A stretch of DNA of 64,000 nucleotides, from assembly GCA_019704295.1 (NCBI GenBank), contig AP024596.1, positions 310,001-374,000 on the forward strand, in the 5' to 3' direction. Made by a program: the position numbers and the translations under genes. Below the pieces are notes generated by a model. The model searched no databases. It saw only the letters and a program-made list of their open reading frames with translations, and was not told the origin of the DNA. Shown here in pieces: positions 34,189 to 59,559 of this stretch. Positions within the stretch are counted from its first letter, which is position 1, and every line of letters starts with the position of its first letter. The stretch is from Sulfolobales archaeon HS-7. Lineage in GTDB: Archaea > Thermoproteota > Thermoprotei_A > Sulfolobales > Sulfolobaceae.

Positions 34189-34775
34189 ATATTCTATTTG
34201 ACGCTTACATTTTAAAAGGGTAAATTAATAGGATTGAATCCTATCCGAAGAAGTTTATGAGGGATTTCCTTCATCCTCCAGGGGTTCTTTAATCCGCTAA
34301 AACGTCGGTCAAGTAAACTTACCCTCCCCTAACTGGGCTTATTACCTTCGACGGGGAAAACACTTAAGACTAGAGATCAGGATAGCGAGTCCATAGGGGT
34401 TTGCTCTAAAGAGGTCCAAATTGCCTAATATTAGGGACTTCAAGGGGGAGATTCTCATGTAGTGATCTATTCGATAAGTTGTAGTGAAATTCCTAACGTT
34501 TCTTTGAAGTCTACTTTTTCCCCCACGGAAGAATTCTTGCCTCTTGTAATTCAGCTCGTTGAATAACTTATCAGAAACGTGTGCTAGTCTCAGCAATTTC
34601 CTCTGTTATCAACCGTTTGGTAGAAGACGGACTACATTAGTACTCCTACTCTCGAACTCAACTCTGTATACACCCTTTGGTATTGTGGGTGTAGGAGTCA
34701 GCTCACGCTCCTCAATAAGTTGCCCAGGACGACGTGCCATGGGAAGTCGAGTTAAGTTAGTTAAAAGACTTTACC

Positions 34776-34792: not shown

Positions 34793-34913
34793 GGCTTGTC
34801 GTTCGTGTATGACCCCCAATGATACTTATTTAAGTATAAAGCCGTTGTCAACAGTTTTAGATAAACCGTGAAGTTTATATAGTTTATATATAAAATATAT
34901 TTTATAAATATTG

Positions 34914-35150
34914 TTATTAGATGTCGATGACCTTTACCGAAAGGTGACAGGACACAAAATGTGCGGGTTTCCCCACATCCATGAGCAGGTGGGGGTTGGG
35001 ATTATCCTGCTAATGGGACGGAGAAGGATGAACCGGGCAACGCCCCGTGACCTCGGTGAAGTTCAAGGGCTGAGGATTGAGATGAAATACTATGAAATCC
35101 TGAAGTCCAAATCGCGCTCCGCGTCAGTTGATCCTGCGAGAAATACGACT
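34914..35150 (+). mobile_element. Remnant of IS605 OrfB/TnpB 3' end
   Basis: The frame reads KMCGFPHIHEQVGVGI, which fits the TnpB C-terminal zinc-ribbon and RuvC-III text (CGF...H-D-VGA-NI) in decayed form, followed by a basic tail common in Sulfolobales OrfB proteins. The other three-quarters of the gene is missing. The GC-rich 3' part, with a GGGC/GCCC hairpin near 35036-35046, is where TnpB genes encode their guide RNA. The adjacent coiled-coil nuclease gene ends at 35160. Confidence 0.4.
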
Positions 35151-35159
35151 TGGGTATCC

Positions 35160-36173
35160 TTAATCTTGACTCTTTTCGGGTCTTCTCCTTTTTTCTATAA
35201 CGTAACCTGCGAGCATTCTTATTCCATATTCTTTTGCCCTCTCTACTGCCTCATCTACTGCTGACACCGCTAAAAATAGCCTAATGGGGTTCTCGAATCC
35301 ATACACCTTAGATACTACGTTTGTCTTGATGTTAAACCAGTCCACGTCGTCACCCTCTGCAAACGATTTAACCTCTATAAGATATACTTTGCCGTTCTTC
35401 GCTAGTATGTCTATCTCGTATATCGTTCCCTTAGCTCCAAACTGTCCAGTAGCGTCCTTATACGTAAGTCTGTTAACGTAAGTGAGATCTATTCCCTCTT
35501 CCTCAACTAATTCCTTAAAGAAAAGTCGCATTACTTCCTCGTAGTCTTCTCCCCATCTCTCACCCATCGAATCCATTCTCTTTTTGATTCCATTAACGTC
35601 CTTCTGCACACCGTATATCGCCTCAGCCAACTTAGCTATCTGCTGTTCGGCCTTATTTTGAGCCTCGGCAAGTCCGGCAACTGTATCCTCTAACCTAGTT
35701 AACCTCTCCTCTGTTTTCTTTTGAGCCTCGGCCAACTCGTTGAGTTTCTCCTCTGTTTTCTTTTGAGCCTCGGCAAGTCCGGCAACTGTATCCTCTAACC
35801 TAGTTAACCTCTCCTCTGTTTTCTTTTGAGCCTCGGCAAGTCCGGCAACTGTATCCTCTAACCTAGTTAACCTCTCCTCTGTTTTCTTTTGAGCCTCGGC
35901 AAGTCCGGCAACTGTATCCTCTAACCTAGTTAACCTCTCCTCTGTTTTCTTTTGAGCCTCGGCCAACTGTCCTACTGTCCTTACCACTCCCTCTAGCAGT
36001 AACTTGGTTTCAGTATTTACCCTGATCTGTTCATCTAAGCTTCTCCTTATGTTACTAAGCTCTACCCCCCACTCTATCTCCTTTATCCCTATCGCGTCCC
36101 TAAACTCCTTTCTGAATTCAGGGTCCTCCTTTAGGAGTTTTATTAGGATGTTTTTAATTTCATTAGACGTCAA
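35160..36173 (-). CDS. Coiled-coil repeat protein with PD-(D/E)XK nuclease domain (copy 1)
   Basis: 337-aa protein of a Sulfolobales family resembling DUF3782/DUF1626. Residues about 70-190 are a coiled coil built from 21-residue repeats (LTRLEDTVAGLAEAQKKTEER, in key form) and shorter 14-residue units. The C-terminal domain has Asp255 (YEIDILA) and Glu267-x-Lys269 (LIEVKS), a PD-(D/E)XK nuclease triad, with an upstream acidic helix ERWGEDYEEV. It is a paralogue of 58678-59559. Its function is not known; a DNA-cleaving or DNA-end-related role is inferred from the fold. Confidence 0.85.
   Translation of the reverse strand: MTSNEIKNILIKLLKEDPEFRKEFRDAIGIKEIEWGVELSNIRRSLDEQIRVNTETKLLLEGVVRTVGQLAEAQKKTEERLTRLEDTVAGLAEAQKKTEERLTRLEDTVAGLAEAQKKTEERLTRLEDTVAGLAEAQKKTEEKLNELAEAQKKTEERLTRLEDTVAGLAEAQNKAEQQIAKLAEAIYGVQKDVNGIKKRMDSMGERWGEDYEEVMRLFFKELVEEEGIDLTYVNRLTYKDATGQFGAKGTIYEIDILAKNGKVYLIEVKSFAEGDDVDWFNIKTNVVSKVYGFENPIRLFLAVSAVDEAVERAKEYGIRMLAGYVIEKRRRPEKSQD
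35650..35970 (-). repeat. 63-bp tandem repeat array within coding DNA
   Basis: Three consecutive 63-bp copies (35755-35817, 35818-35880, 35881-35943) are identical, with a near-identical fourth unit at 35650-35712 and a 42-bp short unit between. All keep the reading frame and add three heptads each. Perfect identity indicates recent expansion or gene conversion. Confidence 0.92.
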
Positions 36174-58677: not shown

Positions 58678-59559
58678 ATGGTTTATAACTATAGCAGAGA
58701 AAATCTACATATGGAACTGAGAAGTGACGAATTGAAAGACATAAAGGATGCAATAAGTAAGCTTGCGGAGGCTCAGTTAAAGTCGGAGGAAGAGATCAGG
58801 AAATTAGGAACCAGTATGAGTAAGTTGGAGGAAACTGTGGTCAAGCTTGCGGAGGCGCAGAGGAGGACAGAGGAGAGGCTTAACGAACTTGCTGAGGTGC
58901 AGAAGCGTAGTGAGGAGAGACTTACTAAGTTGGAGGAAACTGTGGTCAAGCTTGCGGAGGCGCAGAGGAGGACAGAGGAGAGGCTTAACGAACTTGCTGA
59001 GGTGCAGAAGCGTAGTGAGGAGAGACTTACTAAGTTGGAGGAAACTGTGGTCAAGCTTGCGGAGGCGCAGAGGAGGACAGAGGAGAGCTTGGATGAATTA
59101 GCCCGTGTAGTAGCAAACCTATCAACTAAGGTGGAAAGTCTTAACAAAACCGTTAGTAGCATAGGGCAAAGATGGGGCGTAGATTACGAGGAACTCATTA
59201 GAGCCTTCTTTCAGGACTTCGCTAAAAGAGAGGGGCTAGATTTCACATACTTAGATAAGTTCACTTACAAGGATGAAGAGGGTAAATACGGTAAAAAGGG
59301 TAAAGTATATGAAATGGATATACTCGCCAAAAATGACAAGCTCTACCTTATCGAGATTAAATCGTTCGTAGAGGAAGACGACATTGAATGGTTCGATACA
59401 AAAAGCGACATTATAATAAAAGTCCTTAATGCAAGAAATCCCGTAAAGTTAATTCTGGGAGTAAATGTCACTGATGATGCAGTTAAAGCCGCTGAGGGCT
59501 TAGGCATAAAGTTAGTTTATGGGAACGTAATAGAGGTAAAAAGAAAGGAGAAGAAATAG
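58678..59559 (+). CDS. Coiled-coil repeat protein with PD-(D/E)XK nuclease domain (copy 2)
   Basis: 293-aa paralogue of 35160-36173. Residues about 25-155 form a coiled coil with 35-residue repeats (five heptads; LNELAEVQKRSEER plus LTKLEETVVKLAEAQRRTEER in key form). The nuclease domain has Asp214 (YEMDILA), Glu226 and Lys228 (LIEIKS), preceded by QRWGVDYEEL. A TATA-like box lies about 25 nt before the ATG. A small hairpin follows the stop. Function unknown; the coiled coil probably drives oligomerisation. Confidence 0.85.
   Translation: MVYNYSRENLHMELRSDELKDIKDAISKLAEAQLKSEEEIRKLGTSMSKLEETVVKLAEAQRRTEERLNELAEVQKRSEERLTKLEETVVKLAEAQRRTEERLNELAEVQKRSEERLTKLEETVVKLAEAQRRTEESLDELARVVANLSTKVESLNKTVSSIGQRWGVDYEELIRAFFQDFAKREGLDFTYLDKFTYKDEEGKYGKKGKVYEMDILAKNDKLYLIEIKSFVEEDDIEWFDTKSDIIIKVLNARNPVKLILGVNVTDDAVKAAEGLGIKLVYGNVIEVKRKEKK
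58822..59085 (+). repeat. 105-bp tandem repeat array within coding DNA
   Basis: Two full 105-bp copies (58822-58926 and 58927-59031) are identical, with a partial third from 59032. The frame is kept. Unit length and sequence differ from the 63-bp array in the paralogue, so the arrays expanded separately. Confidence 0.92.

Follow-up and report, generated by a model that had tools for sequence, protein, structure and literature searches.

Exact in-frame repeats in the coiled-coil stalk of a predicted PD-(D/E)XK nuclease from a Sulfolobales archaeon, and stepwise stalk lengths among close relatives in its family

The window analysed here is a stretch of 64,000 nucleotides from the genome of Sulfolobales archaeon HS-7, a single contig of 2,151,177 bases. 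The target gene encodes a protein made, from its N-terminus, of a helical segment, a heptad coiled-coil stalk and a PD-(D/E)XK domain of the DUF3782 type. A paralogue located 22 kb from the target in the same window shares 52% identity with it over target residues 65-334. The features of both genes are given in Table 1.

Table 1. Features of the target gene and of its paralogue, in window coordinates
Feature	Position	Strand	Basis
Target gene (337 aa, TTG start)	35160..36173	-	ORF list; PF12644 match
N-terminal helical hairpin, residues 3-28, LLKEDPEFRKEF motif	36090..36167	-	AlphaFold2 and relatives
Stalk helix, residues 35-204	35562..36071	-	AlphaFold2; a/d register
63-bp repeat, exact copy 1, nearest the N-terminus	35898..35960	-	Repeat search
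63-bp repeat, exact copy 2	35835..35897	-	Repeat search
63-bp repeat, exact copy 3	35772..35834	-	Repeat search
42-bp (14-residue) block between copies 3 and 4	35730..35771	-	Repeat search
63-bp repeat, exact copy 4	35667..35729	-	Repeat search
PD-(D/E)XK-like domain, about residues 206-330	35184..35558	-	Residues, model, NucS/EndoMS match
Paralogue, 293 aa, architecture as target	58678..59559	+	ORF; Pfam
Paralogue array, 105 bp x 2.5 copies, 100% identical	58821..59087	+	TRF

Running the program TRF on the window revealed a period of 63 bp with 3.4 copies and 100% match at positions 35747-35963. By searching for the 63-bp unit with up to 3 mismatches allowed, four copies were recovered, each with 0 mismatches and three of them contiguous, at spacings of 105, 63 and 63; the same search on 100 shuffles found 0. 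The array is in frame with the target ORF and its unit corresponds to 21 residues, that is, three heptads. A previous reading made from the sequence only had described three exact in-frame copies of 21 residues, and both searches confirm this contiguous set, but the case was slightly understated, the fourth copy past the 42-bp block and the second array of the window, in the paralogue, having been omitted. The same reading proposed a recent expansion. Since no base differs between the four copies, even at synonymous positions, an origin of the array by recent in-frame tandem duplication is supported.

The a/d core of the stalk is continuous between about residues 63 and 204, with L/Q, T/L and L/V at the core positions of the repeat unit and some polar Q and T layers. 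An unbroken hydrophobic register of this kind is that of a canonical heptad coiled coil. The motif of alpha/beta coiled coils, [aliphatic]-A-T-K-[polar]-[DE], was found 0 times in the target, as against 14 in L006, another HS-7 paralogue. AlphaFold2 modelled the whole target, as a monomer, with one helix spanning residues 35-204; this is a weak model (mean pLDDT 56.5), with low confidence in the head because the alignment comprised two sequences. The N-terminal helices 3-16 and 18-28 had a pLDDT of about 60-77, and the LLKEDPEFRKEF motif of this segment is similar in relatives, as read from their sequences. The stalk would presumably assemble as a parallel oligomer.

The C-terminal head matched DUF3782 (PF12644) with 40.4 bits in the target and 36.6 bits in the window paralogue, for a Pfam cut-off of 24.4. 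For PDDEXK_10 (PF07788, cut-off 21.2), the paralogue scored 22.2 bits, above the cut-off, and the target 18.3 bits, below it. The residues of the PD-(D/E)XK superfamily are present in the target as E212, D255, E267 and K269. We inspected them in two alignments of 13 sequences, A1 (the target, the paralogue and 11 relatives) and A2 (a broader set). All 13 sequences of A1 keep the motif I E as well as the E and K of motif III, and their motif II position is D in 12 and E in 1; in A2, motif II is D in 11/13 and G in 2/13. The C-terminal 148 residues were also modelled separately, on 13 sequences, yielding a mean pLDDT of 79.3 and the secondary structure order H-E-E-E-H-E-H-E from residue 22. Searching with this head model, Foldseek returned three matches with an E-value below 0.001, all of them NucS/EndoMS chains (best E 5.5e-4, TM 0.48). 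Comparison by VIA-align gave a Z of 11.5 with NucS (rmsd 2.5 over 100 residues, 17-19% identity) and of 10.6 with AF1548, while Z was about 8 with the CRISPR ancillary nucleases Can2 and Card1, near the level where a match may reflect a common arrangement alone. As modelled, the head has a NucS-like fold, and judging from its residues and this model it would be an active nuclease. The nuclease domain of the earlier reading is thus upheld, as a predicted domain, by the family match, the conserved residues and the fold.

Other searches with the target mainly touched the coil. PADLOC reported 76 families at E<=1, of which the best 25 were weak (top 3e-7) and mainly covered coil stretches. All NCBIfam matches were far under their cut-offs and mainly in the coil, as was the best match of a PDB sequence search (E 0.03). 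A phage origin was rejected, the target having no relative among viral contigs and no phage match. A plasmid origin was rejected as well: the sole match, with a 917,738-base Thermomicrobium roseum plasmid, had 31.8% identity over query residues 38-206, which are mostly coil.

The scanned neighbours in the window include LUD/4Fe-4S, CCG, MFS, aminotransferase and thioredoxin-like genes. At the loci of 11 relatives, 20 neighbours showed no shared family save a dTDP-sugar isomerase (near two loci) and transposase or transposase-like genes (near two loci). The scanned neighbours give no functional pointer. An operon link with HEPN/MNT is mentioned in PMC3710099; none was present among the 30 neighbour proteins scanned in the window and at the relatives' loci. 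Just downstream of the target, at positions 34841-35111, lies an element of about 270 nt with dispersed copies; at least 22 further HS-7 places overlap it (40 of 53 candidates scored), mostly at 71-85% identity, and many of its copies stop at one common right edge. Rfam gave no match for it or anywhere else in the window, and little covariation was seen among 15 aligned copies, so that it resembles a small mobile element, such as a MITE, more than a conserved structured RNA. Two shorter stretches of this intergenic region, at positions 34338-34445 and 34452-34495, recur at at least 9 and at least 3 further HS-7 places, respectively.

We then surveyed the family. With a close-clade profile at E<=1e-8, matches were detected in 28 of 31 Sulfolobaceae genomes, and all matched places but one (G018:C16) fell within the loci used for the ORF counts. 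The family set was defined by a match to the A1 profile at E<=1e-5, which gave 112 distinct ORFs, some of them from other families; the family loci L003, L007, L008, L021, L044, L079, L142, L153 and L158, being broken, short or weak, have no counted ORF. Proteins with at least 2 hits of the ATKDD motif were called ATKDD-type, and those with one hit were counted as heptad-type. Perfect arrays of at least 2 copies were found in 33/112 ORFs, namely 32/91 in Sulfolobaceae (23/68 heptad-type and 9/23 ATKDD-type) and 1/21 elsewhere. A second sample of 43 members from other Thermoproteota, drawn from 40 loci chosen among the better-scoring places and mostly from few genera, contained 0/43 perfect arrays, which brings the figure outside Sulfolobaceae to 1/64 of the archaeal members examined. 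Fisher's test of Sulfolobaceae against the rest gave 5e-8, on members that are related to one another. As arrays are nearly absent from the members examined outside Sulfolobaceae, their fast turnover appears to be lineage-specific. PF12644 itself was detected in 56/151 genomes sampled from the phylum; of 14 control genomes it was found in 1, that of Sulfolobus acidocaldarius. We also observed that L022 and L024, from two genera, share gene DNA 97% identical over 585 bases with no matching flanks in the examined stretches, which suggests a transfer of the gene alone.

The HS-7 genome has 8 family places. Among the seven checked for arrays (all except L007), perfect arrays occur in 5, L001 (the target), L002, L005, L006 and L008 (called by position in the latter), and none was seen in L003 or L004. 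The 105-bp unit of the window paralogue corresponds to 35 residues, or five heptads. Between the same anchors, this protein exceeds L038, which comes from another genus and has no array, by 70 residues, equal to two of the 35-residue units; L038 looks like its unexpanded form. In the L038 stretch compared, no further gene had a match in the window, hence the relation is drawn from the proteins alone. L003 (G000:C1:1507856-1508131) is a 122-residue ORF with a target-like N-terminal segment and the start of a stalk, without the full nuclease domain, and is probably a decayed paralogue. L006 (L155, G000:C1:1388641-1388928) is of ATKDD-type, carries 6.3 perfect copies of a 54-bp unit and has M at the position of the lysine of motif III; it is a candidate for a long natural alpha/beta coiled coil. 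Over 464 kb of the genome (the window plus 400 kb), six perfect arrays were detected in total, three of which belong to the family (the target, the window paralogue and a third member, in L162). Of the remaining three, one lies in a repeat protein, one in a stretch of low complexity and one is a CRISPR-like array. The repeat protein (L172:562-1725, G000:C1:1300562-1301725), which we take from its sequence pattern to be beta-propeller-like, has an exact 126-bp tandem duplication. In the CRISPR-like array (L173:4779-4940, G000:C1:1454779-1454940), the 30-base repeat and the next 36 bases are repeated exactly, meaning that two adjacent spacers are identical.

The periods of the arrays follow the type of stalk. 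In heptad-type members, including L020 from another family of the order, 26/26 perfect arrays have a period that is a multiple of 21 bp, in 22 distinct unit groups. Among ATKDD-type members, the periods of the 9 arrays are 27, 54, 60, 66 and 87 bp, 0/9 being divisible by 21. Stalk lengths were next compared between nearest relatives among the 110 ORFs with enough domain coverage, omitting the zero differences (one heptad-type and one ATKDD-type edge) and any edge that lacked, at either end, an anchor both unique and shared. For heptad-type pairs with a domain identity of at least 75%, 30 of the 31 nonzero differences were multiples of 7 residues, on edges that are not fully independent; the sole exception was L005/L150, with 109 residues. 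Below 75%, 12/24 nonzero differences were multiples of 7, so that the rule is good for close relatives and blurs with divergence. Moduli other than 7 were near or below chance in the heptad-type sets, save 14, itself a multiple of 7. ATKDD-type pairs gave multiples of 7 in 0/12 cases at 75% identity or more and in 1/20 across all identities. The second sample yielded 9/11 at 75% or more and 14/23 overall for heptad-type pairs, and 0/4 and 1/13, respectively, for ATKDD-type pairs.

The ATKDD stalks obey a rule of their own. In the alpha/beta coiled-coil structure described in PMC4786415, the beta-layer sets the register that comes after it, from which successive ATKDD motifs would be expected at spacings of 2 or 6 modulo 7. 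This was observed for 98/108 spacings in the first sample and 61/74 in the second, only the latter being a fresh test since the prediction was written after such sequences had been read.

Stalk length changes quickly. Among nearest relatives with domains at least 90% identical, stalks differ by 7 to 98 residues, one pair (L104/L037, 90% domain identity) being equal; the constant copy number that would have spoken against the sequence-only reading is thus not what these relatives display. L025 and L123, from one genome, have 408/408 identical nuclease-domain bases and stalks that differ by 14 residues. Two syntenic pairs show the same trend: L031/L032, from two species, differ by 21 stalk residues for domain DNA 98.2% identical, and L013/L016 by 84 residues for 95.1%.

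Taken together, we consider it fairly probable that the target is a DUF3782-type protein whose stalk is lengthened by in-frame duplications in register-keeping steps, remaining a continuous rod that likely serves as an adjustable spacer. Tandem duplication within the stalk would create new lengths, and in Sulfolobaceae it has recurred as independent events across many family members. The steps retained would be those preserving the register, i.e. multiples of 7 residues where the stalk is of heptad type and beta-layer to beta-layer in ATKDD stalks, and lengths that break the rod would be lost, or would never arise because mispairing follows the heptads. Selection may act on the register. Because the kept steps preserve it, fast changes in length would leave the stalk a single unbroken rod, which would hold the predicted nuclease heads away from the N-terminal module. 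By analogy with the HsdS TAEL repeats, the WbdD ruler and SMC arms, a spacer between this module and the heads is the most likely role of the stalk. Going further, copy number in Sulfolobaceae could be a fast genetic dial for the reach of the nuclease, each duplication adding a fixed step to the rod with its strands still in register and retuning, in each lineage, the distance from the anchored N-terminus to the cutting site while leaving the catalytic domain untouched; we regard this extension as rather doubtful. At the usual 0.15 nm per residue, 21 residues make about 3 nm of rod.

The main rival of the spacer reading is homology-driven duplication without selection on length. The stalk would then be a tolerant linker turned over neutrally by unequal recombination or slippage between similar heptad blocks, with steps of 7 residues set by the places where the DNA can mispair, not by selection on the register or the length. 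This is quite possible, if the less probable account. It fits the make-up of the units, whose 14- and 21-residue blocks are alike in sequence, the wide variation in length among close relatives and the ATKDD class, which likewise steps from motif to motif. Against it, net changes of 7 residues (L037/L108, L131/L030) occurred despite differing neighbour heptads, although they may be the net result of larger events, and the rule held outside Sulfolobaceae (9/11) where perfect arrays are absent (0/43), although old arrays may have decayed there. Alternatively, each 21-residue block could be a docking site for a partner, with copy number setting avidity, so that the repeats would be binding sites instead of a spacer. 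A LAEAQ..TEERL block does recur in the paralogue and several relatives, but the sequence of the unit varies by subfamily while architecture and register are constant, and what varies is the length rather than one motif, making such binding sites very unlikely.

The head might also be an inactive, degenerate domain acting as the structural or DNA-binding end of a fibre. The PDDEXK_10 score of the target, under the cut-off, would agree with this, as would the replacement of the motif III lysine by M, T, N or S in ATKDD-type paralogues (EIMSS, EITSS), a threonine at this position being already remarked in PMC1913061. We find it unlikely given the motif I, II and III residues kept throughout A1, apart from the single D to E exchange, and the match of the model with NucS. 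Finally, the repeats could have been collapsed or inflated by an assembly error, the HS-7 genome being estimated 91.32% complete and the gene of one relative, L015, hitting a contig end within the stalk. However, similar arrays with different units exist in many genomes, several of them single-contig, the roughly 217 bp of the array are well below the length of a long read, and errors would respect neither the frame nor the heptad step on which the length differences fall. An artefact of this kind is hardly credible.

The nuclease family as such is known. PMC1913061 placed DUF1626/COG5493 in the PD-(D/E)XK superfamily and noted coiled coils, and the target resembles these DUF3782/PDDEXK_10 proteins in its N-terminal coiled coil and C-terminal restriction-endonuclease-like domain; the description given there contains no tandem arrays, length variation or register rule. 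To the same family belong the crenarchaeal DUF3782 alpha/beta coiled coils with MATKDD nonads (5APZ, as presented in PMC4786415). Such ATKDD stalks exist in an HS-7 paralogue and many relatives, whereas the target lacks ATKDD-type motifs, its stalk being purely heptad. The catalytic domain of NucS/EndoMS is the best fold match to the target head, but in the target a long repeat stalk precedes the domain. Among the open-licence papers searched, mostly at the level of titles and abstracts, we recognised no report of tandem arrays or length variation in DUF3782 nucleases. Stalk length in the family varies strongly, in steps that keep the register when the relatives are close.

Three systems offer analogies, none of which is claimed as a relative. 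In the HsdS subunit of EcoR124I/II, the in-frame copy number of TAEL repeats in a helical, coiled-coil-forming region sets how far apart functional parts lie, as outlined in PMC3874165; there the unit is 12 bp, in two versus three copies, and belongs to a DNA-recognition subunit, and no homology is claimed. WbdD is a three-stranded rod whose length sets the length of its product (PMC5082667), and SMC arms are functional only in certain length regimes (PMC5344682); the accounts of both given in these sources contain no natural perfect repeat arrays. According to PMC5082667, coiled coils on average vary less in length than other regions. In the present family, near-identical nuclease domains can stand behind stalks that differ by as much as tens of residues, and between close relatives the change almost always falls on the helical step. 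The family supplies many natural length variants of one design, a test bed for coiled coils as rulers, and a natural readout of the insertions that a coiled coil tolerates, with heptad and beta-layer stalks side by side.
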